A stretch of DNA of 64,000 nt from assembly GCF_026151205.1 (NCBI RefSeq), contig NC_087079.1, forward strand, positions 2,761,730 through 2,825,729, written 5' to 3'. Below the pieces are notes generated by a model, which did no database searches, was not told the DNA's origin, and worked only from the letters and a program-made list of their open reading frames with translations. This stretch comes from Bolinopsis microptera (taxonomy: Eukaryota > Ctenophora > Tentaculata > Lobata > Bolinopsidae). The position numbers were made by a program, and so were the translations under genes. Within the stretch, counting starts at the first letter, position 1. Every line of letters starts with the position of its first letter. This document shows positions 1 through 51,918 of the stretch, piece after piece.

Positions 1-3000
1 AATTAGATAGTTGTGACGTGTTAGCTGGTTACCTAGCGACCGAGACTAAAATTAGATAGTTGTGACGTGTTAGCTGGTTACCTAGCGACCGAGACTAAAA
101 TTAAATAGTTGTGACGTGTTAGCTGGTTACCTAGCAACCTAGACTAAAATTAGATAGTTGTGACGTGTTAGCTGGTTACCTAGCAACCTAGACTAAAATT
201 AGATAGTTGTGACGTGTTAGCTGGTTACCTAGCAACCGAGACTAAAATTAGATAGTTGTGACGTGTTAGCTGGTTACCTAGCAACCTAGACTAAAATTAG
301 ATAGTTTTGACGTGTTGGCTGGTTACCTAGCAACCTAGACTAAATTAGATAGTTGTGACGTGTTAGCTGGTTACCTAGCAACCTAGACTAAAATTAGATA
401 GTTGTGACGTGTTAGCTGGTTACCTAGCAACCGAGACTAAAATTAGATAGTTGTGACGTGTTAGCTGGTTACCTAGCAACCGAGACTAAAATTAGATAGT
501 TGTGACGTGTTAGCTGGTTACCTAGCAACCTAGACTAAAATTAGATAGTTGTGACGTGTAAGCTGGTTACCTAGCAACCTAGACTTAAATTAGATAGTTG
601 TGACGTGTTAGCTGGTTACCTAACAACCGAGACTAAAATTAGATAGTTGTGACGTGTAAGCTGGTTACCTAGCAACCGAGACTAAAATTAGATAGTTGTG
701 ACGTGTAAGCTGGTTACCTAGCAACCTAGACTTAAATTAGATAGTTGTGACGTGTTAGCTGGTTACCTAACAACCGAGACTAAAATTAGATAGTTGTGAC
801 GTGTAAGCTGGTTACCTAACAACCGAGACTAAAATTAGATAGTTGTGACGTGTAAGCTGGTTACCTAACAACCGAGACTAAAATTAGATAGTTGTGACGT
901 GTAAGCTGGTTACCTAACAACCGAGACTAAAATTAGATAGTTGTGACGTGTAAGCTGGTTACCTAACAACCGAGACTAAAATTAGATAGTTGTGACGTGT
1001 AAGCTGGTTACCTAACAACCGAGACTAAAATTAGATAGTTGTGACGTGTTAGCTGGTTACCTAGCGACCGAGACTAAAATTAGATAGTTGTGACGTGTTA
1101 GCTGGTTACCTAGCAACCGAGACTAAAATTAGATAGTTGTGACGTGTTAGCTGGTTGCCTAGCAACCGAGACTAAAATTAGATAGTTGTGACGTGTTAGC
1201 TGGTTACCTAGCGACCGAGACTAAAATTAGATAGTTGTGACGTGTTAGCTGGTTACCTAGCGACCGAGACTAAAATTAAATAGTTGTGACGTGTTAGCTG
1301 GTTACCTAGCAACCTAGACTAAAATTAGATAGTTGTGACGTGTTAGCTGGTTACCTAGCAACCTAGACTAAAATTAGATAGTTGTGACGTGTTAGCTGGT
1401 TACCTAGCAACCGAGACTAAAATTAGATAGTTGTGACGTGTTAGCTGGTTACCTAGCAACCTAGACTAAAATTAGATAGTTTTGACGTGTTAGCTGGTTA
1501 CCTAGCAACCTAGACTTAAATTAGATAGTTGTGACGTGTTAGCTGGTTACCTAGCAACCTAGACTAAAATTAGATAGTTGTGACGTGTTAGCTGGTTACC
1601 TAGCAACCGAGACTAAAATTAGATAGTTGTGACGTGTTGGTTACCTAGAAGTAGCAACCGAGACTAAAATTAGATAGTTGTGACGTGTTAGCTGGTTACC
1701 TAACAACCGAGACTAAAATTAGATAGTTGTGACGTGTAAGCTGGTTACCTAGCAACCTAGACTTAAATTAGATAGTTGTGACGTGTTAGCTGGTTACCTA
1801 ACAACCGAGACTAAAATTAGATAGTTGTGACGTGTAAGCTGGTTACCTAGCAACCGAGACTAAAATTAGATAGTTGTGACGTGTTAGCTGGTTACCTAGC
1901 AACCTAGACTAAAATTAGATAGTTGTGACGTGTTAGCTGGTTACCTAACAACCGAGACTAAAATTAGATAGTTGTGACGTGTAAGCTGGTTACCTAACAA
2001 CTGAGACTAAAATTAGATAGTTGTGACGTGTTAGCTGGTTACTTAGCAGTAGCAACCGAGACTAAAATTAGATAGTTGTGACGTGTTAGCTGGTTACCTA
2101 GCAACCTAGACTAAAATTAGATAGTTGTGACGTGTTAGCTGGTTACCTAGCAACCTAGACTAAAATTAGATAGTTGTGACGTGTAAGCTGGTTACCTAGC
2201 AACCTAGACTTAAATTAGATAGTTGTGACGTGTTAGCTGGTTACCTAGCAACCTAGACTTAAATTAGATAGTTGTGACGTGTAAGCTGGTTACCTAGCAA
2301 CCTAGACTTAAATTAGATAGTTGTGACGTGTTAGCACTTAGCTGGTTACCTAGCAACCTAGACTTAAATTAGATAGTTGTGACGTGTTAGCTGGTTACCT
2401 AACAACCGAGACTAAAATTAGATAGTTGTGACGTGTAAGCTGGTTACCTAACAACCGAGACTAAAATTAGATAGTTGTGACGTGTAAGCTGGTTACCTAA
2501 CAACCGAGACTAAAATTAGATAGTTGTGACGTGTAAGCTGGTTACCTAACAACCGAGACTAAAATTAGATAGTTGTGACGTGTAAGCTGGTTACCTAACA
2601 ACCGAGACTAAAATTAGATAGTTGTGACGTGTAAGCTGGTTACCTAACAACCGAGACTAAAATTAGATAGTTGTGACGTGTTAGCTGGTTACCTAACAAC
2701 CGAGACTAAAATTAGATAGTTGTGACGTGTAAGCTGGTTACCTAACAACCGAGACTAAAATTAGATAGTTGTGACGTGTTAGCTGGTTACCTAACAACCG
2801 AGACTAAAATTAGATAGTTGTGACGTGTTAGCTGGTTACCTAACAACCGAGACTAAAATTAGATAGTTGTGACGTGTTAGCTGGTTACCTAACAACCGAG
2901 ACTAAAATTAGATAGTTGTGACGTGTAAGCTGGTTACCTAACAACCGAGACTAAAATTAGATAGTTGTGACGTGTAAGCTGGTTACCTAACAACCGAGAC

Positions 3001-3030
3001 TAAAATTAGATAGTTGTGACGTGTTAGCTG
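1..3030. repeat. 49-bp satellite/minisatellite array, about 62 units
   Basis: Tandem 49-bp units run from the window edge (so the array is cut off on the left) to about 3030. Each unit carries TTGTGACGTGTTAGCTGG followed by TTACCTAGCAACC and GAGACTAA. A few units are 48 bp or carry small insertions (near 1640, 2045, 2335). Variant letters (TTAGC/GTAAGC, CTAGC/CTAAC, ACCGAG/ACCTAG) come in blocks. Rare variants recur at a fixed distance: AATTAAATAG at 99 and 1274, GTTTTGACG at 304 and 1479, both 1175 bp apart, which shows a 24-unit higher-order repeat. No open frame is kept. Function unknown. Confidence 0.98.
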
Positions 3031-3210
3031 GGGGATACGTAGAGAATATTGTGTCAGGAGTGAGGAGGGGCATGCATTTTCGATTTTGTTGCCTTCTTTG
3101 ACATTGAATGAAATTTATAATTCTATTTAGATCTTAATTTATATATAAACGTAGGCGACGACACATTAACTGATCATCTGGGACCATCAAACAAAGTATT
3201 AATCCTGTGG

Positions 3211-3453
3211 TAAGAAATCTAGCAAGAAACGGAGAGAGCAAACCTGGTGGGTAAGAAATCTAGCAAGAAACGGAGAAAGCAAACCTGGTGGGTAAGAAAT
3301 CTACCAAGAACAGAAAGAACAAACTTGGTGGGTATGAAATCTAGCAAGAACAGAAAGAACAAACCTGGTGGATAAGAAATCTAGCAAGAACCGAAAGAAC
3401 AAACCTGGTGGATAAGAAATCTAGCAAGAAACGGAGAGAGCAAACTTGGTGAC
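3211..3453. repeat. 40-41-bp tandem repeat, six copies
   Basis: Units begin with TAAGAAATCTAGCAAGAA at 3211, 3252, 3293, 3333 (as TATGAAATC), 3373 and 3413, and end in AAACCTGGTGG. The first two steps are 41 bp, later ones 40 bp. The flanks 3031-3210 and 3454-3619 show no gene. Confidence 0.93.
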
Positions 3454-5948: not shown

Positions 5949-7214
5949 GGAGAGGGAGAGGGAGAGGGAGAGGGAGAGGGAGAGGGAGAGGGAGAGGGAG
6001 AGGGAGAGGGAGAGGGAGAGGGAGAGGGAGAGGGAGAGGGAGAGGGAGAGGGAGAGGGAGAGGGAGAGGGAGAGGGAGAGGGAGAGGGAGAGGGAGAGGG
6101 AGAGGGAGAGGGAGAGGGAGAGGGAGAGGGAGAGGGAGAGGGAGAGGGAGAGGGAGAGGGAGAGGGAGAGGGAGAGGGAGAGGGAGAGGGAGAGGGAGAG
6201 GGAGAGGGAGAGGGAGAGGGAGAGGGAGAGGGAGAGGGAGAGGGAGAGGGAGAGGGAGAGGGAGAGGGAGAGGGAGAGGGAGAGGGAGAGGGAGAGGGAG
6301 AGGGAGAGGGAGAGGGAGAGGGAGAGGGAGAGGGAGAGGGAGAGGGAGAGGGAGAGGGAGAGGGAGAGGGAGAGGGAGAGGGAGAGGGAGAGGGAGAGGG
6401 AGAGGGAGAGGGAGAGGGAGAGGGAGAGGGAGAGGGAGAGGGAGAGGGAGAGGGAGAGGGAGAGGGAGAGGGAGAGGGAGAGGGAGAGGGAGAGGGAGAG
6501 GGAGAGGGAGAGGGAGAGGGAGAGGGAGAGGGAGAGGGAGAGGAGAGGGAGAGGGAGAGGGAGAGGGAGAGGGAGAGGGAGAGGGAGAGGGAGAGGGAGA
6601 GGGAGAGGGAGAGGGAGAGGGAGAGGGAGAGGGAGAGGGAGAGGGAGAGGGAGAGGGAGAGGGAGAGGGAGAGGGAGAGGGAGAGGGAGAGGGAGAGGGA
6701 GAGGGAGAGGGAGAGGGAGAGGGAGAGGGAGAGGGAGAGGGAGAGGGAGAGGGAGAGGGAGAGGGAGAGGGAGAGGGAGAGGGAGAGGGAGAGGGAGAGG
6801 GAGAGGGAGAGGGAGAGGAGAGGAGAGGGAGAGGGAGAGGGAGAGGGAGAGGGAGAGGGAGAGGGAGAGGGAGAGGGAGAGGGAGAGGGAGAGGGAGAGG
6901 GAGAGGAGAGGGAGAGGGAGAGGGAGAGGGAGAGGGAGAGGGAGAGGGAGAGGGAGAGGGAGAGGGAGAGGGAGAGGGAGAGGGAGAGGGAGAGGGAGAG
7001 GGAGAGGGAGAGGGAGAGGGAGAGGGAGAGGGAGAGGGAGAGGGAGAGGGAGAGGGAGAGGGAGAGGGAGAGGGAGAGGGAGAGGGAGAGGGAGAGGGAG
7101 AGGGAGAGGGAGAGGGAGAGGGAGAGGGAGAGGGAGAGGGAGAGGGAGAGGGAGAGGGAGAGGGAGAGGGAGAGGGAGAGGAGAGGGAGAGGGAGAGGGA
7201 GAGGGAGAGGGAGA
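5949..7214. repeat. GGGAGA hexanucleotide tract, about 1.27 kb
   Basis: Almost pure purine repeat of GAGAGG/GGGAGA with only a few single-G losses (near 6541, 6817-6828, 6902, 7181). The polypurine strand with a GGG run in each unit could form triplex (H-DNA) or G-quadruplex structures. The open frame through it (Arg-Glu, then Arg-Gly dipeptides) is an artefact of the 6-bp period. The true length in the genome may differ from the assembled length. Confidence 0.98.
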
Positions 7215-7560: not shown

Positions 7561-8506
7561 TACGTTACCTTAGAGTACGGTCTGTGGAATGAAGGCGGAG
7601 TCAGGACACACTCGGTAGATAAAGAGAATCCCTCTACCCTCTCTTGTCGGTTGGAGTCCTCATTTTCTAACATTTCCCGAATCATTTCAACATTTCCAGG
7701 GGGAAAGTAAAATGCCACGATGAGAGCCTGCTGACCCTGCCACATGAGACATGCTCCAACCCTTTTAGAATCCCGCCATACCATCTGAGTGAAGGAAGCT
7801 GCTTGCGGGTTCACTGCATTGTTGCCAACAGCAAAGTGCTCCCCGTCTCGTACCACTGCCCACACACTTTCTCAGCCATGCTGGAGGGTGCCGGTTTGGT
7901 CATCGCAGAGATGGTGCAGCACGTTTGACCCAGTCCACTCTTCTCAGCCCCCGACTCCCCTGCCAACAGATTAGTGTCCCCATTTCGCCTGCTCTCGGCG
8001 ACTAGATGAATCGCCCACTTCCGTGCCTTAGCGGTCAGCTTGTCCGACCACACAAAGTGCTGAACTTTATGGCGAGCCCTATACTTGTTGTGGCACTCCA
8101 AAAACACCCTCTCAAACTCACACAAATCCCCCGAGCTGACTGGCGGCTCCTTCTCGTACTCAACTCTGCTTCTCACGGACAAACTCTCCTCCCGCTTCAA
8201 ACTCACTTTATAGTCATTAGACCCGAAGTTCTTCCTCAAACACTGTCCACACACCATCTTCCCACTGTTATCCAGGAGACTGCCATCCACCTGCTTCTTA
8301 CAGTGGTGGCACTGCACACAGGTGGGGTGGTAAGTTTTGTTCTTGATGGTTACCAACCCGCTCGTCGTCGCTATTATTTCCTCCCCGCAGAAGTCGCACG
8401 TGTGGAGGTTGCAAGTTCCTGAGGAGGTTTCAAAGTTGGTTTTAGTTCCCGAACATTCTTCTGGGGCTGTTACTTTAAGTCGCAGGGACAGTCCTTTGCC
8501 AGTCAT
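7467..8506 (-). CDS. LIM domain + CAP (GAPR-1-like) protein, broken by one frameshift
   Basis: Residues 37-89 form a canonical LIM zinc-binding module (CX2C, then HX2CX2CX2C, then CX2C). Residues ~130 on form a CAP/SCP domain: FLECHNKYRARHKV is CAP motif 1 and WSDKL follows. The frame starting at 8506 runs to 7811, passing AEKVCGQWYETG; the rest of the CAP domain (SFTQMVW, VAFYFPPGNV) lies in another frame, 7865-7467. The switch occurs at the G4 run (CCCC at 7841-7844), where one base appears to be missing. The usual His of the HFTQMVW motif is Ser. No signal peptide is seen, as in cytosolic GAPR-1 proteins. A polypyrimidine/AG acceptor (TTCCTGTCTAG) lies 19 nt before the ATG. Role unknown; family members bind lipids or sterols. 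The frameshift is either a mutation or a base-calling error. Confidence 0.85.
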
Positions 8507-8525
8507 GGTTGTGGTGGTGTTTAGG

Positions 8526-9536
8526 CTAGACAGGAAGTAGAATAAGAAACTGGAAAACTTTGGTGCAATTTGAAGCTTTTTTACACTGTAACAAAGTTGA
8601 TATTATACAGATGGCACAAAAAAAGCTTTGTTAACTGAGTAGTGAGCAAGGGGGTAGCAACAATTTCACAGACAGGTTGTCAAATGTGCGTTCAACCGGA
8701 AAATGAATTCCAGAAGTGACAGTTGCAGGCTGGGTAAGCAGGATATAATGAGTTAAGTGGATTAGTTGTTTGCGACAAACAGAAGCACGCTCTGCTTATT
8801 ATATTTATCTATTGGGCGTTTCATCGAAACTGTGATTCAGTTCTCCTGACCGAAGTTCTAAATATGAGTTATTATTGCTGACAACTCGTACACAGCTAAC
8901 ATTTATACATATTTACAGATACAATTGCCACAATTTACCACAGTAGTAACAGTGTGGTCTGGCATACAAACCATATTTACTTCTAGTTCTTCAATAAGTA
9001 TTATTGGCTTCATTTACAACTCTATGTTATGCATGGTCATGCATAACTATACATGTATAAAGTCCGTCTATAACTATATTCTATTTATAGACAGTAGACA
9101 ATTAGCAGTAGACAATAATTGACATATCTGCACCTCAGCAGATTTTATGAGTGGAAGTAACTGGAAGTGGAAGTAACCGGATAGGACGCATGAAATCTGG
9201 GAATCAAGTAAATCAGGGCTCCTGGTGATTCTGTTAATTAATAGGTATACATGAACATAATCTTCAATTTAAATACTGATTTCTCATTCATTATTTATAA
9301 CTTTTATATGTCCATGCTTCAACTTTCCGTGTCCTTCTGTTGTTTATTTATAAAAAGGATACAGCATAACAATGGTTGCCTATAAATGTTAGCTTTTTAA
9401 TTATTTCGCAGTTTCCAAACCTGCAATAGCACCATCAGTGGGTGTTTTTCCTAGTTCCCTGTTCCACTGATTCTTCAGGTCACGAAGCAAACAATCACAG
9501 AATGTTATCGTGTATGTCCGCTCCTCGTCGCCCTTG
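8526..9536. other. Intergenic, no gene seen
   Basis: AT-rich DNA upstream of the LIM-CAP gene. Short ORFs only; no repeat or RNA gene recognised. It may hold that gene's promoter, but no element can be named. Confidence 0.4.
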
Positions 9537-19425: not shown

Positions 19426-19818
19426 ACCTCAAAAACTAAAATGAGTACAAAACTAGTTATTGACAAGTTGATTCAAAGATAAGTTGGACATTATTCATTA
19501 AATTAGGGTGCGAACATTTGGGTTTCTACTAACTTACTGCATATCAAAACCTTGTCCTTTAAAATCACGAGGAATACCTTCCCTTTTTTATTTTCAGATG
19601 CTAATTATTTAAGCTTTATTTTTTCATTGTGAATGACTTGAAATTTTTGATTATCAGATTTAAATCCATTGATATTTTGGGGTATATAACACATTGCACA
19701 TGTTTACAGTGACACGATCATAGAATTATTATTTTATGAGGAATTGTGTTTATACTTTGTTATAACTCAAGTAAACTGCAATAGTCTTTTCGGTGAATAT
19801 TATGTGTTTATCAGTTGC

Positions 19819-21495
19819 ATGGGTTTATGCTTAAACTCTACGTGTCCTATTCAAGACACTTTTTTAGAACATGATTCATGTCCTGGTCAGTATCCTGGCC
19901 GAGTCAAAACTCTGGCAAACAACAATAACCTGACTTTTGTGTCAATGTCCGATGTAGGTGAATATGAAAATACAATTTTCCAATGTAAGAATACTAAATG
20001 TATAAAGTACAGCCAAGTTTGCGACCTTGTTGATGACTGTGGTGACATGTCGGATGAACGAAACTGTACAAATCATATAGTTTGTGAGAATACAAACAAC
20101 CGGACAGATCAAGTAAAAGAGCACTTGATATCTCATTCCCAGAAGTGCGACGGTAGATTTGATTGTTTTGATCTTTCAGATGAATGCAATCTAGAGTGTG
20201 GCAAGGAAATCCTCCAAAACTGGTTCTTGAAACTTTATTGCTGGTTGTTGGGCCTCTTAGCAGCAATTTTTAATATCATCACCGTGTGCAAAGTAGCGAG
20301 TTGTATTAAAGACTCTGAAACAAGAAGCAATTTATACACTACAGTACTAATTTGTGTAATCGGAATTGGTGATTTCCTAATAGGAGTCTACTTGATCGCA
20401 CTATCAGTATTCGACAGCATTATTTTCGGAAAGAATTATTGCAGGAAGCAAGCTGAGTGGTTATCGGGGAATTCTTGTTCTGTTCTTGGAGTTATCAGCA
20501 CTGCGGGATCACAACTTTCTTTATTTTCGATGACTCTTTTAAGTTTGATCAGGATGTGGGGAATTCTGAACAGCTCTCTTAGCATTCCAGCCCGTGTCAA
20601 TAAAAGAGCAATAGCAAAATTAATTGGGATCGTTATTGGAATCGTTACTGCTTCGATATCAGTAGCAATCATACCATTGGTCCCCGCCTTAGATGACTAC
20701 TTTGTGCAAGGTTTCTTCTATGATCCACTCTACAAGCTATTTATCGGATTCCCGAACAAAATGAAACATATTAAAATTCTTCAAGCATACTACAAAACTG
20801 AAAATTTGTTGGCGAATACAACTTGGGCTGAGATCGGCGAGAAAGTTGATGGAATGTTCAACCAAAGCTTGAGTAGAAGTGCAGTGCACTTTTACGGAAA
20901 TGATGGTGTGTGCCTCTTCAAATACTTTGTTCGTAGTGATGATCCTAGAAGAAACCGCATAACATCGGATATGAAAACAGAAATGATCGACGTGAAAGGA
21001 AATATGATAGTTTGGCTTATGTTGGGCGTCAACCTTTTCTGCTTTGTGGTGATAACCGTGTCCTATTTGATGATCAACATTATATCTCGGAAATCATCCA
21101 GAAATTCTGGGCAAAATAGCAATCCAGATGCTGTCCGCAGAAACCGAGCAATTATACAGACCAGGATTGCGCTGGTCATAGCCACAGATTTCGCCTGTTG
21201 GGTTCCATTTATGATCATCAGTGGGCTCCACAATCTCGAAACAATCGATGCTACAGATTGGTACGTAAGCTTCGCTATGATAGTTTTACCCCTCAATTCG
21301 GTCATCAACCCTTTGCTATATGATAACACTCTCAGAGAGTTGTTTGGTGAGGCATTCAGAAATTTTGCTGCTAGATGTTCAAGAGGCGCTACATGTTTAA
21401 GATTGCAAGTTACTGCTGTAGAAATGGGAGATCAAATAGAGGGAGCATCGCAAGTAAGAGCAAACGAGGATATCATCGCAGAAACGCCAATTTAG
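19819..21495 (+). CDS. LDLa-containing rhodopsin-class GPCR (relaxin/LGR-like), intact
   Basis: About 558 aa if translation begins at 19819; the frame is open further upstream, so a 5' exon could supply a signal peptide. Two Cys-rich LDLa-like repeats (CIKYSQVCDLVDDCGDMSDERNC; then CDGRFDCFDLSDEC) precede seven hydrophobic segments. TM2 contains GDFLIGVYL, close to the DFLMGVYL of relaxin-family/LGR receptors; the Cys in TM3 (NSCSVLG) is conserved; DRY is replaced by IRM; TM7 has NPLLY. There are no leucine-rich repeats, so the layout recalls LDLa-only receptors such as snail GRL101. A long second extracellular loop holds a Cys (GVCLFKYF). Acceptor-like TTTATCAG ends 4 nt before the ATG. Ligand unknown. 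Confidence 0.9.
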   Translation: MGLCLNSTCPIQDTFLEHDSCPGQYPGRVKTLANNNNLTFVSMSDVGEYENTIFQCKNTKCIKYSQVCDLVDDCGDMSDERNCTNHIVCENTNNRTDQVKEHLISHSQKCDGRFDCFDLSDECNLECGKEILQNWFLKLYCWLLGLLAAIFNIITVCKVASCIKDSETRSNLYTTVLICVIGIGDFLIGVYLIALSVFDSIIFGKNYCRKQAEWLSGNSCSVLGVISTAGSQLSLFSMTLLSLIRMWGILNSSLSIPARVNKRAIAKLIGIVIGIVTASISVAIIPLVPALDDYFVQGFFYDPLYKLFIGFPNKMKHIKILQAYYKTENLLANTTWAEIGEKVDGMFNQSLSRSAVHFYGNDGVCLFKYFVRSDDPRRNRITSDMKTEMIDVKGNMIVWLMLGVNLFCFVVITVSYLMINIISRKSSRNSGQNSNPDAVRRNRAIIQTRIALVIATDFACWVPFMIISGLHNLETIDATDWYVSFAMIVLPLNSVINPLLYDNTLRELFGEAFRNFAARCSRGATCLRLQVTAVEMGDQIEGASQVRANEDIIAETPI

Positions 21496-34950: not shown

Positions 34951-36581
34951 CTACCATGATTTATACCAGAAACGCGGGAGAAAAAGGCACACATGTCCTG
35001 AAAATTTTGTGAACAGTGTGCTTATTGTGTCATCATAGATCAAAGGGTTGACAACAAAGTTAATGGGAAGAAAAATGATTGAAAAAAATCCGTAGTACCG
35101 AGTACGATGTTTCGTCAAATTGCCCGTAGTAGTGGAGACAGCACACAATGATGAAAGGCACCCAAGTAAAAAAGTCAGTTAATATGATCAGACCTATCTT
35201 TCTTTCCAAGCCATTGGATTTGTTTCTTTGTATTAACCTCGAAGCATAATTTGAAGAGAAATAAATGGCAATGTATGAGACAGACATGACGAGACAAAGA
35301 CTAAAGTTAACTGAGAGCATTGACATTTGACAAGGAGAATAATCGCTGAGGGTCCAAATCCGTTACAAAGTACTTGAAAACACAAACACCAGAATTGCCG
35401 TAAAAGTTTTGATTTGACCCTGAAATCCCACCGTGATCGTTAGTGAACATATCGGCAACAATATTTCTGATAACATGCCAAGAAACAAAAGAATCTCGGA
35501 GCCGTCCGTTGTATTTTTCTAAAATATTGATGTGTTCTTGTAAGGATGGTGCACCTATGAACAAGGTTATGTTAAGATTTTAGTATATGCCGTTCAGGAA
35601 GTAATCCTCATAATGGAGAATTGGAATTAAAACGACCGCTAAAACGCAGCAACAAAGGAACAAGAGAAAAATTGCGGTAAAGCATACAAACGAGCTGGAG
35701 AGTTCTCTTGAGGAAAAAAGATGTCTGATGCTATAAATCCTGTAAACACTAAGACATGACATGGAGGAGATGGAGAGAAGAGATCCAGTGGTGCTGAGGA
35801 CGCCCGGAGCAGTGCAGTACCAACTATTCAGCCACTCAAACCTCAATCTGCAGAAGATCAGGCTAATACTTGGTACTCCGTAAACGTTTTCATCAACTGC
35901 TTTGTAGGTTTTAACAGCACATTCTCCCTGCATTCCAGGAAGGCACTGGTAAGACAAAATATACCTTGATGGAGTTCTTGTATCATCAATCGCTTTTGTT
36001 AACAGACTTACCATTCCCCGAGAGTCTCTGCAGATGGAATTTTCACCTGGGCACTCTTCTATGTAGTCGAGGAGATTCTGAATTTGAATTTGCACTCTCC
36101 GTGCAAGTTTCTGTTTTCTCGATACATCTAAAGCCTGACTTAGTGACTTATCACTTCCACAAACATTCCACTGGCTGGTATCCTCATCTATTCCATCAAC
36201 ACAGTCAACCTCGCCGTCACAGAAACACGCTTTTGGGATGTTTTTAAAGGAACCGGGAGCAAAACTCACCTTTCTAGCACACTTTTTAAATGTCATGTCC
36301 TCGCAAATGTGAGTTATTTCGTCCCCCTGAAACTCACAATCGTCAACACCATCACAGAGTTGGTGTTTGTGGAGGTAACAGTCATGTTCCGCCAGCAAAC
36401 ATCTCTCATCAAACTTGTCGTCACAAATACCATAACCCTTACAGAGATCATATTGAGAGACAGTAGTTGTGTGGCCACCAACTTGACACGTAAGAGCAAT
36501 ATCAAAGCAGTTCAGCTGGTCTCGTCCGTCGTCGCAAACTTTGTAGTCAAGTAAGGCTTCCCCAACGGTTGGATGGCACAT
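34951..36581 (-). pseudogene. LDLa GPCR pseudogene, paralogue of the 19.8-kb receptor
   Basis: The first frame (36581-35580) has several LDLa-like repeats (CDGVDDC, CDGEVDCVDGIDED), TM3 (FEWLNSWYCTAPGVLSTTG) and TM4, then an in-frame TAA at 35580-35582. Homology continues in the same frame (FIGAP..., FYGNSGVCVFKYF; 35564-35307). TM5 and TM6 follow in a shifted frame (35326-35060), and TM7 with NPLIYDD in another (35148-34951). TM1-TM2 are missing compared with the intact receptor. One stop, two frameshifts and a deletion show it is dead. It is the same receptor class as the intact gene, on the opposite strand. Confidence 0.88.
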
Positions 36582-36846
36582 CTGGTTTGGTTTTATATAC
36601 CTAGTTCCATCATTTTCCCCACTCTGTCTGCATCATCTTCCTCTTTTTTGGACTATTGAATCCTTTTGTGTTTTGTATTGATAATGATTAATATAGTAAA
36701 TTTTAATTTTTTTTTTTTTTTCTTTTTTCTTTTTACTGTCAGCCAATATTATTTAATAATGTCTCTAACACTAATGCACCGCAAAGCAGCTGCAATATGA
36801 CAGTTCTAAGTTGAGTCCACATCAGAATATTACACATCATACTGCT

Positions 36847-38173
36847 TCATATGACTGAATTTACTCTTCTCGATTGTAGTGACGTTCTGACAAAACCCTT
36901 GAATGAGCTGCTGATCAGAAGGAATGAGACAGCATCAAATGAGGACTGTACAAGTGGCAGTCCACAAGCTTTGGTAAACTCAACAAAGTCCCAAAAGGAA
37001 CTCACATTTTTTGTGCTGAATGTTTTCAAATAAATAGAGTAACTAACATTTATTACCAAAATCAAAACATTGAAAACGTTCATAGCAACAATAGCTTGAA
37101 TACTTTTGTCAATGTTTCTACTGGACACTTCTGATGATGCAGTATCCGAATTTTTGAGATGAATTATCGTAAGTGTGCTGAATAGGCCTCCAAATAGCAA
37201 AAGTAAACAGTTTAGAGAAATAGTAATCATCGGCAATGTTCTTGCTACCGGTATATTTGCTGTTGAAACACCATCGAAAATCCTATAGTAAGCGACTGGC
37301 TTCCATTGAACCTCAATTATTCTGGAACATATCTTTAATAGTCCCACGATAAAGAAAAAAGCACAAACAACCCTGTCACAGAAGAAACTGCAAGTGTTGT
37401 AAAATGATCATGAATAAGGACTCCATCACATCAAATGGCAAAAAGATCAAATCAGCCCCTGGTTGTTGCAAGACCTATAACATCATCTATCTTGTACAGT
37501 GTTCGATTTGTAAGAAAAACTATGTGGGTAGGACTATTAATAGCTTGCATAAAAGGATGGACGGACACAGGTCCAAATTTTATGAAATCGTTGATGGTAG
37601 AGCATTTGATATTACTAGTGATGAGTATAGCCTAGGAGTTCACTTGATTGACCACGGTTTAGGAGTACATACAGATTTTAATGAAACTTTTAGAACTTTT
37701 ATTTTAGAGAATTGCAGTCCCAGTACACTTGAAGTAAAAGAAAATAACTACATACATTTGCTTAATTCTCTTAGACCTTTTGGCCTTAATACTGTCAATC
37801 CCTTTGGATTACCTATATTCCATAAACCTTAATATGATCTTTTTACCTTTTTCGGATTCTTAATTTTGTAACGGTTTGAGTTTCACTAACCTTTTAACAT
37901 TTTTTAGGTTCAATGTCACTGGAGATGACTACAATCGAAATATATTTGGCAAGAATCTGAATGTTTTCAGTGTTGAAAGTTTAGTTTCTTAAATCCTGGA
38001 GTAGTCATTCGTGTCCCTGATATTTGGGTTAATTCTAACTCTCCTGCACAAACAACATTTTTTCTACTAGCAGAAACGATAGGGTCTTTGATATGGATGT
38101 AGCGTAAAACACAAAGTAAAATCAACAAATCGATTTCCAAATCGTATGCAATCAAGAAGGCACTGTTAGCATA
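36847..38173 (-). pseudogene. GPCR gene (TM3-TM7 region) split by a Penelope-like element
   Basis: Segment 38173-38046 encodes a TM3-like stretch ending VLRYIHIKDPI (DRY-region-like) and then SRKNVV. Segment 37371-36847 encodes TM4 (FFFIVGLLKICS), TM5 (LPMITISLNCLLLLFGG), TM6 and TM7 (PLVQSSFDAVSFLLISSSFKG). The insert 37372-38045 separates them and is flanked by the 11-bp duplication GCACAAACAAC (37361-37371 and 38046-38056). Removing the insert and one duplication joins the two halves in frame at the start of TM4. The 5' exon(s) with TM1-TM2 were not found; an acceptor ACAG near 38163 may start this exon. The rhodopsin-class subfamily cannot be told. Confidence 0.8.
37372..38045 (+). mobile_element. 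5'-truncated Penelope-like element with GIY-YIG domain
   Basis: The reading frame runs from the insert start to 37832. It opens in the PLE linker Cys cluster (PCHRRNCKCC), then has the GIY-YIG endonuclease core (NIIYLVQCSICKKNYVGRT) and the PLE C-terminal signature RPFGLNTVNPFGLP. The RT part is absent, as expected of 5' truncation during target-primed insertion. Target duplication GCACAAACAAC on both sides. Inserted antisense to the GPCR. Confidence 0.93.
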
Positions 38174-38775
38174 TTAGTGCTTTTCATTCAAAGAAGTAAA
38201 ACCGAATCTTTTATGTCATGTTTCCAGGGTTTGGACTGGAATTGCCAGCTTAAAGAACTTCCATCGCATTACATTACATAATTTTCTGAAACATATGCTA
38301 CATTTACAATAAATTATGCAATATCACAACAGAATAAAACAAATATTTCAGAATAAAACAAATATTATATTCAAATCTCTTTATTCAACAATATTAAATC
38401 ATTATAGAACCTAATTTGTGGCTTGATCGTTATGTTAGGGCTATTCTGTTAGCTGATGCTGACAGGCACTGCATGGGGCAGAGACTTAGGACCATTACGC
38501 TGGAGGCTTACAATGACCCTTTTTGAACCCCATGGCAGTGCTAGTTTTATTATGGTACAAATTGTAAATCGAAGTTATGAAAACGATCAAGTCACTCCTG
38601 TTTTACACTATCAACAGCTACTTAAAACAACCTAGATTGTACAACTCACTTTGAAGATTAAACTGTTAAGTGATGAGTGATTGGGCTCATTAAACATTTT
38701 AGTAGCGGAGACATGCGGATCAGCTTCTTGAGGTTCTAATAGTTCATTCAGACAAGAAGTTTTATTTTTTCAAAT
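38174..38775. other. Spacer between GPCR pseudogene and LINE
   Basis: Probably includes the LINE 3' UTR at its right end; an 18-bp direct repeat CAGAATAAAACAAATATT occurs near 38335-38370. No gene. Confidence 0.4.
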
Positions 38776-40569
38776 TTAGTCGTTCAAGCTGCCTGAGTTC
38801 AGAAAGTTTGCCAAAGGGGCCCAGGTATTCTTGTCACCTTTACCCTGAGACGAGAGAATGACTTTTTTTACCTTTGATTTGAATACACCATGAGTGATTT
38901 CAAGGTCGTTCAGTGCCAACATCTGACGGAATGAATTCCAAAGGCAACTAGATTTGTAAACGAAACTGTTTGAGGGCATGGTTGTTATAAGAAGAGTTTC
39001 TTTGCCGGGTCTTTTAGACAAACAGAAAAGTTCAAATAGTGCAATTGGTGTTCGATATTTAAAGACTTTAAAAAGTTCATTGCAGCAGTGATACGTGTAT
39101 AAATTATGCAATGTCATGAGTGATTGACGGGCAAAAATTGGCTTGGTGTGCTCTCTCTCAAAGAATTTGCTAGTAAGTTTCTGTTCACTGATAGGTCTAG
39201 TCCTAGCACATGTCATAAATTTATCAAGGTATGCTTTTTTGTCACCAAACATGATACGAACACACTTTTTCTGGGCTACAAATAGTGGTTGAAGTTTATT
39301 ATTACTTGCACCTCCCCAAACGGTAATGCCATAAGATAGGTGACTTTCAAAAAGTGTGTGGTACAGGTCCTTATGGATAGATGATGGAATTTTATCCTTA
39401 ATCATGTATAGCCTCCCAGAACAGGACGAGAGTTTTCTAACTAGTTTGTCTCTATAGGGATTGAAAGTTAGGCCTTCGTCGACAATTACTCCCAGGAATT
39501 TCGTTTCCTGCACCTTTGAGAGAGGTAGGCCGTTGAGGTAAAGTCTATTTTCAATTAATAAAGATTGATCATCAAGTTTTCTTTTAGCTGTATTGAATTC
39601 TATGTAGCAACTTTTCTTGGCGTTAACATGTAATTTATTAGCCAATGTGTACTCGTGGACTGATCGTAGGACCCTATTTGCATTATTGTAGGCCTCTGCT
39701 CTAGTTTTGGCAACTACAAATATGTTTGTATCATCAGCAAATAGGACATAGCTAGTGTTATCGAGTTGAGAGTTAGTTAAGTCATTTATGTATATTAAAA
39801 ACAGGAGAGGCCCAAGGCAGCTCCCCTGTGGAACGCCATAGAGAACAGGAAGTCTGTCTGATACTTCGCCCAGGACGGACACACACTGCTCTCTGTCCGA
39901 CAAGTAACTTTCCAGTAACTTAAGTGGCACTCCTCTAATCCCATATATTTCAAGTTTCTCAAGCAAAATTGTGTGGTCTATTGTGTCAAAGGCCTTGCTT
40001 AGATCAATAAAAATTCCTAGAACATGAAGACCTTGCTTTAGGGCCTTTTGGATGTGAAAAACTGAGTAGTTAAGTGCATGTGATGTTGAGTGACTCTTTC
40101 GGAATCCGAATTGACTGTCGTGAAGGATTCCTTGACTAACCAAGAAGCTGTAAAGACGTTTGTATATTATCTTTTCAAAAATTTTACCAAAAATTGGAAG
40201 TGTGGAAACAGGCCTGTAGTTCTCAATCAGTTCTTCGTTATCTTTTTTGTATATTGGGGTTATTTTGCCAAGCTTCAGAACTGACGGAAATATCCCTTGA
40301 GATATTAGGCGATTAAATTGAACAACAAGAGTTGGGCTAAGAATACCCGATAGTTTTTTGATTACTCTTATGGGAAAGTCGCTAGCTTTCCCACTCTTCA
40401 AGTTGGCTATAATCTCCGAAATTTCATCTTCACTACAGTCATGGAAGTAAATTGAATCGAGAGTTTTTGGTGGCATGAATTCGAGGAAAGAGGGAAGAGG
40501 TTCTAAAAGAAGGCCATTATGAGTATTTTCATTCATTTTTGAGGCAATAGAGGCAAAGTACTCATTAAA
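38776..40569 (-). mobile_element. 5'-truncated non-LTR retrotransposon (LINE) with reverse transcriptase
   Basis: An open frame of at least 586 codons carries RT motifs in order: YRPVSTLPIFGKIFEK (~107-122), FIDLSKAFDTIDH (~176-188), PQGSCLGPLLF (~236-246) and the catalytic FADD (266-269), followed by LINE C-terminal sequence. Upstream, FNEYFASIASKM is in frame to 40569, where homology stops at an A-rich stretch, so the endonuclease domain is missing. Jockey/CR1/L2-like superclade by motif style; exact clade not decided. The frame is intact, which suggests a young copy. Confidence 0.92.
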
Positions 40570-40910
40570 AAAAAAAACAACATTACAATCAACAAAATAA
40601 ATTTAATCACAGAATCTCAAACACAAATAATCGTAAATTAAACACAAAAAACAAATTAAACAAGCAATAAATGAATATACAAATGCGCATCTTTTGACAA
40701 CTTACTCCTTCATAAAATAAATTTTTGACAAAAATTTTTTTAGACTTCATAAAATAAATTTTCGACAAAAATTTTTTTAGACGGTAATATAATTGTTACT
40801 AATTTATAAGTCACAAATAATAAATCAATACAAATTAATCACAAATACTAGAATAATTAATAGATATTAGGTAACTTATATAACTGAAAAACGATATATG
40901 TCGATACAAA
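40570..40910. other. AT-rich spacer with a short tandem duplication
   Basis: A ~37-bp unit (CTTCATAAAATAAATTTT...ACAAAAATTTTTTTAGAC) occurs twice, ~40709-40781. No gene. Confidence 0.6.
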
Positions 40911-41990
40911 TTACAAAATAATATTAGGTGATTGAAACATTTCAATAAATTCATCATAAATATCACTACCATATTTACCCCAAATATTTAATCTTGATTT
41001 ATAAAACTTGACAAACTTGTTGCGCAATGCAGCTAACTTAAATCCTTGTGCAACCAATTTACCTAAAAGTTCGGTAACACAATTTTTAAAACCCTTAAGT
41101 GTCGAATTAATTCTGGCTAATCGTACTAATTGAGAAATAAATATTCCATAAGACAAATTATTTGGAACGTTTCCATCCAAAAACGGATAAGATATAACTT
41201 TAAAATTATAATCTTTTCTTTTATCATATAATGTCACTCTAGACTTCCCTTGATAAATACTAATGTTTAAGTCTAGATAGCAACATTTACGAGCCGAAAT
41301 ATTAGTATTATTTACTATCATTTCCTTAGGATAAATATCTTCTAATACATTCTGTAATAAATTGAAATCATTAAAAACTATCAAATCATCTTGATAACGA
41401 AATGTGTCTTTTAATCTTTTTAAATTTTCTGTATCCCCTTTTTCTATCAAAAGTTTAATATATTTATATTCGTAAACATGTAAATAAACATTAGCTATTT
41501 GTGGTGCTGCATTGGTACCCATTGGTATTCCAATAACTTGTCTATAAATTTGACCCTGATAAGTAACATAAGAATTATCAATCAAATAATTAAGACATTC
41601 CAAAAGTGTATCTTTAGAAAACTGAACTTTATTTTTACTAACATTGTCAGAGAAATAGGCCTTCTTAGTATAAAGATTAGGAATAATATAAGACTTATCT
41701 TTAAAATCAAATACTCTTTCTACAAACATACGAAGATTATCCTTCAATTGAATATGAGGAATAGATGTATATAAAGTTGAAAAATCATATGTACTGACAG
41801 ACTTTAAACCCTTCTGGGTATTATCATTACTAAGAAAATCTAAGATAGGTTCATTATTATCAATAACAAAATAATCATTTCTAACGTGAAATTTATTATC
41901 ATATATAGATTTATTTTTAGCTGAGTGAAGCATAGATTTAATACAAATGCTAAGATAGACTGATATGATATCCAAGATATGGAACTTAGA
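40911..41990 (-). mobile_element. Reverse transcriptase fragment, Penelope-like type without GIY-YIG
   Basis: A 354-codon frame holds TYDFSTLYTSIPH (motif A, D64), GIPMGTNAAPQIANVYL (motif B, ~149-165) and FRYQDDLIVF (catalytic YQDD, 194-197). These motifs match PLE-type RTs and differ from the LINE at 38.8 kb. In frame the sequence extends to ~41990, then meets a stop, so it is 5'-truncated. No GIY-YIG follows the stop at 40911, suggesting an endonuclease-lacking PLE or a 3'-incomplete copy. It lies directly downstream of a small membrane-protein gene on the same strand. Confidence 0.8.
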
Positions 41991-42090
41991 TTTTCATCTA
42001 CGTAGTAGCTTGTCTCATTGATTGACGATAGAAGTTTAGGAACCAGAGCAATCGGCGAGTAGATACTTTTTAATAAATCGATTGAGCTTA

Positions 42091-42769
42091 TCAGTAGGAA
42101 CAAGATTGTTGGCAGGGATTTCTTCTGTGTTGAATGATAATAATAGGATACAGCGTTATTCCAATAATGAGACAACAGATAAACAGTGCTGCGAAGAAGT
42201 AGTTGAAGAATACATCCCAATCATTTCCAGCTCTAAAAAAAAGAATTTCACTATCATTGTTCCTGACTGTAACGTTTCCAAAAATTGCCATCACTATAAT
42301 TAAAACCAAATATTTAATTGTATTATAGGGATTATAGGTGTCTTATAAAAATATGAGGATCAATAAATGCAATATGAAAGGTGAAGGGATCTAAAATATA
42401 GTCCTGTATATTAGCTTCATCATGACAAAATCTCTTAAAACGTTGACCGTCTCTGTTACAGATTTAAAACGGGTGTACCCAACGCATTTCTGTGCCCCAG
42501 CTTTTGCAAAGAATTCCAGTGGTATGGTTGCAGCTCAGTATGTATGTTGAAATTTTGAGTCGCAAATGATAATATCCTTTTCAGAACGCAAAATTAATTT
42601 TGTAATGTTCATCAGGTTACTCACCAGATATATCTGTAGTGCAAGTAGGACTTTTATAGTCATTGTTTCCAAAAGTACAAATTCTGCTGTCCAGAGATGA
42701 TGTGGTATAAATCAGAGTCAATAAAACAATAGCAAACATCACGATGATCCGCGTAAATGAATTTTGCAT
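42091..42769 (-). CDS. Small single-pass membrane protein, two exons, ~115 aa
   Basis: Exon 1, 42769-42625, encodes a signal-peptide-like start (MQNSFTRIIVMFAIVLLTLI) and a short Cys-containing ectodomain, ending at GTGAGT in phase 1. Exon 2, 42293-42091, begins after TTAATTATAG, reads GNVTVRNNDSEILFFRAG, then a strong TM segment (FFAALFICCLIIGITLYPIIII) and a short basic, Cys-rich tail. Phases agree. No domain recognised. Middle exons in the 331-nt intron are possible, in which case this is the end of a larger receptor. Not clearly broken. Confidence 0.45.
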
Positions 42770-46622: not shown

Positions 46623-47963
46623 ATGAATCGTTCAATCAAACTGTGTACTGTGCAATGGTTAATCGGTTTTCTTGTAGTCACTCAATCACAGCTTACAGGT
46701 GAGCTAATCGTCTTATTTATAGTGGTCGATGCGATATTTTATTTATTGATGTCATAAATGAATAGAAACTTAGATTACAACAAATTGGGAGTTGAATGTA
46801 TCTATCTGATATCGGGTCTAATATATTATCGATGTAGAGCCAAAGTCAGAGGAAGCAGAAATAACTCCGACGACAGTTACACAAGGACGGACGAAGGAGA
46901 ACCATTTTGCAATACTTGCAGTCGATAAGAAACTTTCGACAGTAGCAATTACTGAACCTGATAACGGAGCAAGCTGGTTGAAGTTAGAGTTTGATAGAAC
47001 CTATTTCATTCACAAGGTCGTTATCTATTTCCCATTCTACAAAAAATACTACAGGAGTGGTTGGTGTACACAAAGTAAAGATAATTTCGAGGGATGCGTG
47101 AACAAACGTACCAACATAGATGTGTCAGTGTACCAGGGAGAGGTACAGCAGAAATCCTGCGGAACACTCCAACTATCATACGGACTAGAGCAGGCAGACC
47201 AGATCTACACACTGATCTGTAACATTGAAGGAGATACTGTAAAACTCAGTAAGACAACAGAAAATTTGGTGTTAAACGAAGTTGTTGTGACTGGAACAGG
47301 TACTTCAACAAAAAAAATATACACTTTTAAAATAGTTTGTCACTTAATTCTAGGAATCTACTTAAATCATTGAACATCTTTTTCATAATCATTCTGACTC
47401 GTACGTAAAATTAATAAATTTACAGTAATATTCTAGCAGAAACGAGCAATCAAGCTAGCATTTAGCAATTATAACTTCGTATTTCAGTTCGGAGACGAGA
47501 AATATTCGAGATAAATCCAACAGGAGTTACACACGGAAAAACGTACAGGAGCAATGAGGAAAGTTATTCAGCAGCACATGCAGTTGATAAAGACCTCTCA
47601 ACTGTAGCAAACACTGTCACTGATACCGGAGCAGGCTGGTTAAAACTATCGAGTTTGACAGAATCCATTTTATCCACAAGGTTCGAATCTACTACAAGTT
47701 CTACACTAACTGGTACCAACATAGTCAGTGGTGTGCACTCAGTGAAGATAACTTTAGGCAATGTGTAAACAGCGATAACAACGTAGATGTGTCAGTGTAC
47801 CAAGGAGAGGTAAAACAGAACTCCTGCGGAACACTCCAACTATCATACGGACTAGAGCAAGCAGACCAGATCTACACACTGATCTGTAACACTGAAGGAG
47901 ATACTGTGAAACTCAGCAAGAGTACTGGAAACATAGCGGTCTATGAAATTGCAGTGTTCACAG
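46623..47963 (+). CDS. Secreted F5/8C/fucolectin-like domain protein, two domain exons, frameshift in the second
   Basis: Exon 1, 46623-46698, encodes a signal peptide (MNRSIKLCTVQWLIGFLVV). Exon 2, 46838-47299 (154 codons), and exon 3, 47488-47963, each encode one galactose-binding-like module: AVDKKLSTVA and WLKLEFDR...HKVVIY, then conserved Cys (GWCTQS, GCVN, SCGTLQLSYG, LICN). Both exons are phase 1-1, typical of shuffled extracellular modules. Exon 3 is 476 nt, one short of a codon multiple, and its frame changes near 47650 (AACTATCGAG), so it is mutated or miscalled. An acceptor ends 1 nt before the ATG. Terminal exons were not found; the gene may be incomplete or interrupted by the PLE at 49.2 kb. 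Likely carbohydrate or cell-surface binding. Confidence 0.75.
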
Positions 47964-47975
47964 GTAATTGGTCTC

Positions 47976-48589
47976 TTTCGTGGATCGCGCATTTGAGCAA
48001 GCTCTGGCCTGGCAAGCTAGCGTGGCTAAATTTAATAAAATAGTCAGTGATGTTTTCATCACGTAAAGTTCGCTGGGATCATAATGCCTTTAGTAAGACA
48101 TACTAACACGTCACAGAGCATGGGTGACAGGCGACATGGTTATTTTCCATGTAATCCTCTACTACGCGACTGAACATGATGCGGCCAACGAAATGTACAC
48201 ACTTAATCAACCATTAACTTAGATATCAAATTAATAAAATATCTTCCCCATGGTGCTGAAAAACGCTCAGTCGAATAAAATAAATGACAAAACAACGTAC
48301 TGAATCTCTTTTAATCGAAAATATTTTCTTAAATAACAAATAAACGAATTCAATTCAATCATTTAAAGACCATCCTAGTGTTATGTCAAACGATGCTATG
48401 CCTATAAAAAAATGGTTAATTCTTCCAGTCATAGCGTTCCTTTCAAGGGGGCAGGGGGGTCTTTTAAGTGCAATTATTTTTCTCCTCCTTCGCCAAGAGA
48501 GCAAACGAAGGTATGAAAATCTACATTCAAGGCACGCAGATAAATAAAAGGAACAGTGTACGGGAAGTACCTACCAACTGAACATCTAG
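47976..48589. other. Intron or intergenic between exon copies
   Basis: AT-rich; no exon recognised. Confidence 0.4.
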
Positions 48590-49839: not shown

Positions 49840-51918
49840 TTAAGATAAATCCAATAATGGAATCCCAAACGGGTCCACGGCATTGAGCCCCAATGGACGT
49901 ATAGTTCTCAGTTTCTGAATATAACGGTGTTCATCCACTTCGAGAGTTCTTGGGCTACTATTACTGAGAATTGACACTTTATAAGCCTGGTTGAAATTGT
50001 CACGCTGTTTCATGTTATGAACTTCTACAAGGTGTTTACCCAAGCTGAATCCGTCGTCGTTTTCTTCAGGGACAAACGTATTGTCCGAAATGAGTTTGTA
50101 GTAATGGGCGCGATGTTCGTTTACTCGTGCCCTTAGGGGCTGCACCGTTCTTCCTACATAACACATATTACAAAGTTGGCAACTGAAGATGTATACAACA
50201 TTGTAGCTGACACATGTACCAGACACTGCTTTGGCTCGCTGTCCGTTGACTGTTATTGATGGATGTGGAGATATGATGTTACAGGTACCGCAGTGTCTGC
50301 CCCCACATGGTCTTGTGTGAGGTTGGGTTAAGTCATCCGCAAACTGTTTTGCTTTGACTAACTTCCTTCTAAATGATGTTCCAGTACGTCTGACGAATTT
50401 GAAGATAGGGCGTGATGTACCGGCTCTAGATGATATTGGGGAGCCTGGGGTGTTTCCACTTGTATGGGAACCAGATAATCCTGAGAAGCTCCTGGTTCTA
50501 CTGAGCTCTGGTTCCAATCTTTTTACCGATTCTACTAACTCTTGATCGCTACCAAATGTTGAAATAACGCGGACTGCTGGTTCTGGAGACTTTGGGACCA
50601 GGACATTGCTGTTTGAGTTGTCCAGTGGTTTGAGGCATCTTTCAAAGCCTTTGACTTTTTCACTGATGTTATCTACCATAGTTTTAGGGTAGTTGGATTG
50701 GAAGAAAAAGGTTTTTAATTCATCAATTTGTTTTCGGAGTCTGTCGTTATCATTGATGATTCGCCGGAGTCTCAGGCATGCACTATAGACTATGCTGCTG
50801 AATGTATGGTTCGGGTGGTGGGAACCGAAGTACAGGTAGGAGCGAGCATCTGTCTCTTTAACATGGAGGTCTGTCTGAAGATCACCTGCGGTGTCGAAAC
50901 AAAATTTTATGTCTAAGAACGCCACATAAACATTGTTATCTTCTATGATGTTCTCATCAATGTTGAGGCCAAGTTCTGCTAGCCTTGTATTGACAGTCGC
51001 GATGAATTTTGAAAACTGTCTTTTCGTACCATGGAATACTCCACAGCCGTCGTCTATGTATCTCTTGACCGATTTTACAGGTTCCATTAGTTCCGTGTCT
51101 GAATAGACTTGCTCACGCATGACATGGTATACTGCTATGTTTGCAAGTTGTACACAGATACTGCCTCCTGTCGGTACTCCTCGTTTTTGTCTGTACCACT
51201 CTCCGTTAAATTTGCCTATAGACGACTCATAGCTGAGTTCAACACTTCTTATCAACCACTCCTTGAATTTGGCGGACCATTCAGGTCTCTTTTCTTCCAT
51301 GGCCACCTTCAAAGCTTGGAGTGTGAGGTGGGGACTCAATGAATCATATAAAGCTTTGTAATCAAATGTGAATGCTTTAATGTTGCTTTTGAGTTCTGTG
51401 TCCAGGGTATTGTTGATGTTGTCGAGCCAGACTAAGGCGTCTCTATTATCAATAAGAAGGTCTTCGCAAAAATCCCTTTCTAGTTGACGTAGGTATTTAT
51501 CAGCTAGGAAGACATCCGGTCGTCTGCTGGCTCCTTCGTGGAGGGCGGTAATGAGTCTTGCTGGTGGTTTGGCCCCTGGTATGAGTTCTTCTTTTTTCAG
51601 CTTATGAATTTTAAAAGCAGGGTAGAAATACGGCTGGCCAGGGCGATAGTGAGGGAGGGTACTGGGGCGGTTTGTGGGTCCAGTTTGGTCTGCTCTGGTG
51701 TTGTCAGAAACACCCATCACTTCTTTCGCATCCCTTGCTAATATCAGTCCTTCTTCTTTTCCCTGTACCCAGTGCTTGAAGAGTTTCTCATACAGCTGTT
51801 GGGTAGGGTCACACTTCCCGATCTTTCGAGTATGCCAGCGACGAGGCCAGGTCATGAGATTTTCAACAGAAGCTAACTGCATGATACAACTATACCTACT
51901 ACAGCAGCTATCGTTCAA
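49840..51918 (-). CDS. Penelope-like RT plus GIY-YIG endonuclease, 692 aa
   Basis: RT motifs: PAFKIHKLKKEELIPGAKPPARLI (~100-123), TFDYKALYDSLSP (catalytic Asp ~186), RGVPTGGSICVQLAN (~246-260) and YIDD (287-290). A Ser/Thr-rich linker leads to the CGGRHCGTC cluster (~538-546), then the GIY-YIG core NVVYIFSCQLCNMCYVGRT (~574-591) and the C-terminal signature RPLGLNAVDPFGIP. The frame is uninterrupted, so the element may be recently active. Annotated PLE proteins are often longer, and the 5' end may be truncated or the start may lie upstream in a non-ATG context. The GIY-YIG domain matches the truncated PLE at 37.4 kb in layout but is a different family. Confidence 0.95.
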   Translation of the reverse strand: MNDSCCSRYSCIMQLASVENLMTWPRRWHTRKIGKCDPTQQLYEKLFKHWVQGKEEGLILARDAKEVMGVSDNTRADQTGPTNRPSTLPHYRPGQPYFYPAFKIHKLKKEELIPGAKPPARLITALHEGASRRPDVFLADKYLRQLERDFCEDLLIDNRDALVWLDNINNTLDTELKSNIKAFTFDYKALYDSLSPHLTLQALKVAMEEKRPEWSAKFKEWLIRSVELSYESSIGKFNGEWYRQKRGVPTGGSICVQLANIAVYHVMREQVYSDTELMEPVKSVKRYIDDGCGVFHGTKRQFSKFIATVNTRLAELGLNIDENIIEDNNVYVAFLDIKFCFDTAGDLQTDLHVKETDARSYLYFGSHHPNHTFSSIVYSACLRLRRIINDNDRLRKQIDELKTFFFQSNYPKTMVDNISEKVKGFERCLKPLDNSNSNVLVPKSPEPAVRVISTFGSDQELVESVKRLEPELSRTRSFSGLSGSHTSGNTPGSPISSRAGTSRPIFKFVRRTGTSFRRKLVKAKQFADDLTQPHTRPCGGRHCGTCNIISPHPSITVNGQRAKAVSGTCVSYNVVYIFSCQLCNMCYVGRTVQPLRARVNEHRAHYYKLISDNTFVPEENDDGFSLGKHLVEVHNMKQRDNFNQAYKVSILSNSSPRTLEVDEHRYIQKLRTIRPLGLNAVDPFGIPLLDLS

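Follow-up and report, generated by a model that had tools for sequence, protein, structure and literature searches.

A spare duplicate of a receptor gene in the comb jelly Bolinopsis microptera has very probably been dismantled recently by mobile elements, with the insertion of a Penelope-like element (PLE) being one of several lesions in the gene rather than a clean receptor switch. The gene copy lies in a 64,000-nucleotide stretch of DNA, referred to here as the window (C8:2761730-2825729 of the 264.65-Mb genome, which is assembled in 232 contigs). In the explanation that we favor, the gene that was hit would be a dispersed copy from a receptor family, probably rhodopsin-like, that has expanded in tandem, and into this copy a recently active PLE would have placed a 5'-truncated copy of its 3' end, 674 bp long, at the start of TM4. 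Independently, another retroelement would have entered between TM2 and TM3 and later been hit by a LINE, and a 7-bp deletion would have shifted the reading frame in TM1. The order of these events is inferred.

Results

The two copies of GCACAAACAAC that flank the PLE are separated by 674 bases (Table 1). This 11-bp sequence occurs exactly twice in the 64-kb window, compared with a chance expectation of 0.05, and none of 100 shuffles contained two occurrences. The edges of the insert rest on more than the repeat, because the 3' edge is the family-wide Penelope terminus (...AATTCTAACTCTCCT or one-base variants) and in the alignment with paralogs each edge lies no more than 1 base from a break. 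At the 5' edge there is an ambiguity of 3 bases (AAC), as the target and the source element both read AAC at this point. The insert corresponds to positions 2645-3318 of a 3318-bp unit, its last 674 bases, with matching that begins at 2642 through the 3 shared bases. An initial annotation of the region had proposed a 674-bp truncated PLE between identical 11-bp copies, with both ends fixed to the base. The repeat count, the family 3' end, and the paralog alignment bear out this description, apart from the 3-base ambiguity at the 5' edge.

Table 1. Coordinates of the receptor copy and its lesions, numbered from the first base of the window.
Feature	Position	Strand	Details
Receptor copy, TM4-TM7 and stop codon	36847..37371	-	DNA similarity to three paralogs extends to 36671
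Target-site duplication copy 1, GCACAAACAAC	37361..37371	.	11-bp direct repeat
5'-truncated Penelope-like element	37372..38045	+	674 bp; linker end, GIY-YIG endonuclease domain, 3' UTR
Target-site duplication copy 2, GCACAAACAAC	38046..38056	.	11-bp direct repeat
Receptor copy, TM3 segment	38046..38173	-	96% to C11:1642143 and C1:23481252 paralogs
Outer RT element, 3' remainder	38174..38331	-	0 mismatches in 160 to C7 copy
Nested LINE-like element	38330..40569	-	RVT_1 E=1e-34; 3 mismatches and 1 gap in 2240 to C11:156824-159062
Outer RT element, 5'-truncated	40577..41962	-	2 mismatches in 1389 to C7:12633704-12635241 copy
Receptor copy, start codon (42291) through TM2	41963..42291	-	DNA similarity to C1 paralog extends to 42401
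7-bp deletion (frameshift)	42130..42145, near 42140	-	Relative to 5 aligned paralogs; breakpoint ambiguous by a few bases

The insert and one repeat together comprise 685 bases, shifting the frame by 1 (mod 3). Removal of the element with one repeat, predicted earlier to unite the receptor halves in one open frame, does so on the minus strand, where the frame from 38173 to 36847 is stop-free up to its natural end. In the C11:1642143 paralog, the insertion point corresponds to residues 150-153, where TM4 begins. Translation of the insert on the plus strand gives a GIY-YIG domain (PF01541, E=0.001) that at 19.8 bits scores below the curated cut-off of 22.6, and over 152 aligned positions in the endonuclease part the insert is 40% identical to a 692-aa open frame at 49840-51918. 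The latter frame belongs to a different Penelope-like element, with a Pfam match to RVT_1 above the cut-off and to GIY-YIG below it.

The protein joined across the PLE (210 aa) matches ten loci in an array on C11 (1.64-1.69 Mb) and one on C1, followed by weaker relatives. Nine of these 11 close loci have open frames that match at 81-89% over nearly the whole 210-aa query. The other two are broken: C11:1688513 aligns over positions 6-208 of the query and has a shortened frame of 230 aa, and the match at C11:1662379-1663001 falls into two parts, one of which contains a stop. All 11 loci (10 on C11, 1 on C1) carry a single uninterrupted target site with 10 of 11 bases matching. The three receptor pieces in the window follow the same order as in the paralogs, the alignment being interrupted where the two insertions lie, and the piece that had been called the TM3 half starts at 38173 only because the second, larger insertion ends there. 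A receptor gene beginning at TM3 was rejected as a candidate, with the missing TM1-2 found at 41963-42291.

These comparisons bear on whether the halves come from different genes, or were brought together by a rearrangement, with the 11-bp repeat a product of chance. The window copy is located outside the main C11 array, and what it has in common with the C1 copy is the gene itself and not its flanks (9.9 kb compared), as might be expected from such an origin. However, the paralogs run continuously through the junction, the inserted DNA is a defined element that has target repeats and ends at the 3' terminus seen across its family, and an 11-bp repeat has a low probability of occurring by chance. 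We consider this origin exceedingly improbable and rejected two unrelated gene halves as a candidate; the halves are pieces of one gene, as initially annotated.

The Penelope family is present in many copies. We found at least 42 matches to the insert in the genome, itself included, at about 40 places, with two copies giving two matches each; this count is a lower bound, with the best 40 of 88 candidates scored. The insert differs by 1 base from each of the seven best-scoring other copies, although polishing of a long-read assembly can make repeat copies seem more similar than they really are, and other matches among those listed go down to 90% identity. This near-identity suggests that the family copied itself recently in the genome. 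The single base of difference agrees with the earlier proposal that the insertion is recent, as does the presence of one empty site at each of the 11 close paralogous loci.

Full 3318-bp units that each abut a partial copy occur at least four times (on C10, on C4, and twice on C12), giving the partial tandem organization known as a pseudo-LTR, with the tandem copy on C10 having a 3318-bp period. With the 3318-bp unit as the query, the best 40 of 118 candidates have 5' ends that are scattered from position 1 to about 2930, and 41 of their 48 matches end at 3315-3318, with the other seven ending earlier. A solo element of fixed 674-bp form was rejected in view of the variety of 5' ends among the other copies. 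Terminal direct repeats were found in 11 of 13 chosen Penelope copies (5/5 and 6/8) and were absent from the remaining two; the repeats measure 9-16 bp including chance extensions, from a search in which either junction could be offset by as much as 6-7 bases. A pair of copies on C1 among the 13 has one common repeat and looks like a single duplicated insertion. At C1:22029606-22039406, two inverted Penelope copies (L005 and L006) with the same target repeat are part of an inverted duplication that extends beyond them (98.9% over the 3.7 kb covered). The family thus combines 5' truncation, a common 3' end, and target-site duplication.

The tandem copy L050 adds no support for recent activity, its RT region being split over two frames. 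Pfam detected no RVT_1 in these two frames at E<=1, and a search of solved structures with one of them returned no matches; the motifs YIDD and DKG, which we take to be RT-like, are visible in the frames. Hammerhead ribozymes are common in Penelope pseudo-LTRs, although not universal. Rfam gave no hammerhead matches in L050 at E<=1 or in the window at gathering scores, and a hammerhead ribozyme in the tandem copy was rejected on this result.

The second interruption of the receptor gene is a 3789-bp nested insertion at 38174-41962 that separates TM1-2 from TM3. The target repeat of its outer RT element is about 3-4 bp and ambiguous, and the 5' junction shows a short microhomology (TAT). The 5' junction of the nested LINE contains seven T residues (40570-40576) that have no counterpart in this LINE or in the outer element. 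The outer element has a weak RVT_1 match (E=0.0073) in the window frame 40911-41993. A longer copy (L064:791-3001), with a frame of at least 736 aa, has neither RVT_1 nor GIY-YIG at E<=1, and a search of solved structures with one RT frame of the outer element found no matches. A search of the literature on the permuted Penelope clade gave no family assignment for this element.

The third lesion is the 7-bp deletion in TM1/ICL1, the breakpoint of which is ambiguous because of a short repeat. The resulting frameshift leads to stops about 15 codons downstream. This lesion bears on whether the gene pieces remain in use, either through splicing of the insertions as introns or through separate expression: the pieces are in open frame on both sides of the Penelope fragment, but the deletion brings stops within the first piece, and we assign continued use next to no probability. 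Lesions aside, the 319 codons compared contain no stop, and thus the receptor copy may have died recently.

Relative to the C11:1642143 paralog, the window copy has a dS of 0.073 and a dN of 0.055, compared with a difference of ~0.13-0.15% between the insertions and their nearest copies. Therefore, the receptor duplicate is far older than the insertions. The dN/dS ratio is 0.59-0.87 for the window copy against nine paralogs and 1.08 for C11:1642143 against the C1 copy, values that give little indication of strong constraint among these receptors.

The receptor is probably a divergent rhodopsin-like (class A) GPCR, a label drawn mainly from one profile search. A profile of 18 family members, chosen from 23 listed frames with five left out, matched class A receptors among solved structures over positions 35-314 (best E=1.3e-6). 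Of the 48 distinct chains matched at E<=1, three are not receptors: OPG140 (E=0.037) and two cytochrome c oxidase subunit 2 chains (E=0.53 and 0.69). None of the 18 members matches Pfam 7tm at E<=1, and the two window receptor pieces scanned with Pfam match nothing. The hydropathy of the C11:1642143 paralog shows six hydrophobic helix-like regions at the chosen cut-off, with the TM7 region below it. The family profile also failed to match the LDL-receptor-type GPCR that Pfam recognizes in the window (probability 0.7%).

That LDL-receptor-type GPCR adjoins the receptor copy at 35005-36632 on the minus strand and runs over shifted frames with a stop. It is 29-48% identical, by pieces, to an open 601-aa relative at 19690-21492, and its TM1-TM2 stretch does not appear hydrophobic by eye. 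It is probably another pseudogene, in which introns are possible. Elsewhere in the window are tandem arrays of a 49-bp unit (1-3031, about 62 copies) and of the hexamer GGAGAG (5949-7214, about 212 copies), a LIM domain and a CAP domain joined in one open frame (7811-8602), and two consecutive open frames that are alike by eye (46822-48043), the first with weak Pfam matches to Sde182_NH-like and F5_F8_type_C_2.

Discussion

The initial annotation treated the Penelope insert as the divide between a working and a broken receptor and suggested a simple presence/absence polymorphism. Neither proposal is sustained by the analysis: the same copy holds two further lesions, and removing the Penelope element alone would still leave a broken receptor because the 7-bp frameshift and the 3.79-kb insertion remain. 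Since the order of the lesions is not readable from the sequence, the Penelope insertion could have preceded the other two. The copy would be a pseudogene whichever lesion came first, and we infer its lack of function from sequence.

One could instead regard the Penelope insertion as the primary inactivating event in a working gene, with the empty allele still encoding a functional receptor. The insertion is very young and the coding pieces are stop-free apart from the listed lesions, both of which suit this alternative. However, on the same assembled chromosome this reading frame is also interrupted by the 7-bp frameshift and the 3.79-kb nested insertion, so that a functional allele must be without all three lesions, and we judge it very unlikely that the insertion played this part.

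A second allele was not seen in the assembly, where the left flank (36640-37371) matches only itself at full identity and the other 16 matches are at most 92% identical. According to excerpts of its published description, this assembly had haplotigs removed and was polished (PMC10232365), and for that reason the missing empty-site allele is weak evidence. The Penelope insertion itself may still segregate. It is unlikely, although less so than the alternative above, that all three lesions are recent and still segregating, with some animals having an intact working copy; if true, the receptor copy would be seen midway through its loss to several young families of retroelements.

Loss of a spare duplicate to mobile elements, the explanation that we prefer, would fit a familiar setting. 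Tandem arrays of chemoreceptor-like GPCRs with pseudogenized members are known, and the receptor family resembles them in having many close copies in a row, some of them broken (2 of 11 here). It differs from them in that the window family has no Pfam match.

The Penelope insert also has known relatives. Canonical PLEs with a C-terminal GIY-YIG domain include the Pen families of Adineta vaga (PMC3846280) and PAc of Anolis (PMC11167929), and the family described here shares with them, as far as excerpts of these reports describe, the GIY-YIG end, the tandem or partial-tandem layout, 5' truncation, and short target duplications. Target duplications of 8, 9, and 10 bp are given in these excerpts (PMC3846280, PMC11167929), which also draw a hammerhead ribozyme for Anolis PAc (PMC11167929). 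In contrast, the repeats of the window family measure 9-16 bp, counting chance extensions, Rfam detects no hammerhead in its tandem copy, and the host is a different one. One PLE case in the same excerpts (PMC3846280, PMC11167929) resembles the window insert in having a 5' junction formed by microhomology; that case lacks a target duplication, whereas the window insert has both.

The mechanism of insertion was likely target-primed reverse transcription, given the shared 3' end, the varying extent of 5' truncation, the duplicated target, and the 5' microhomology, as well as published accounts of these elements (PMC3846280, PMC11167929). Staggered cuts would have given rise to the 11-bp target duplication, and the 5' junction would have formed at the 3-base microhomology.

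A Penelope-flanked gene insertion in Adineta vaga was compared with its empty site in a portion of an earlier report (PMC3846280). As in that case, the target repeat here lies on both sides of the filled site and occurs once at the empty site. Unlike the allelic empty site of Adineta vaga in that portion of the report (PMC3846280), the empty site here is paralogous and so is uninformative about segregation. A search of the open-licence literature returned nothing comparable on Penelope insertion polymorphism in chemoreceptors or on Penelope elements in ctenophores. Nothing in the evidence is outside known kinds.

The insertion does not establish a functional receptor polymorphism. Instead, one spare receptor copy holds young insertions of three retroelement kinds. 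The Penelope insert provides a well-bounded case of Penelope-like retrotransposition in a comb jelly, with target repeats, 5' microhomology, and a common 3' end, and its near-identical, multi-copy family could serve the study of how Penelope-like elements integrate.
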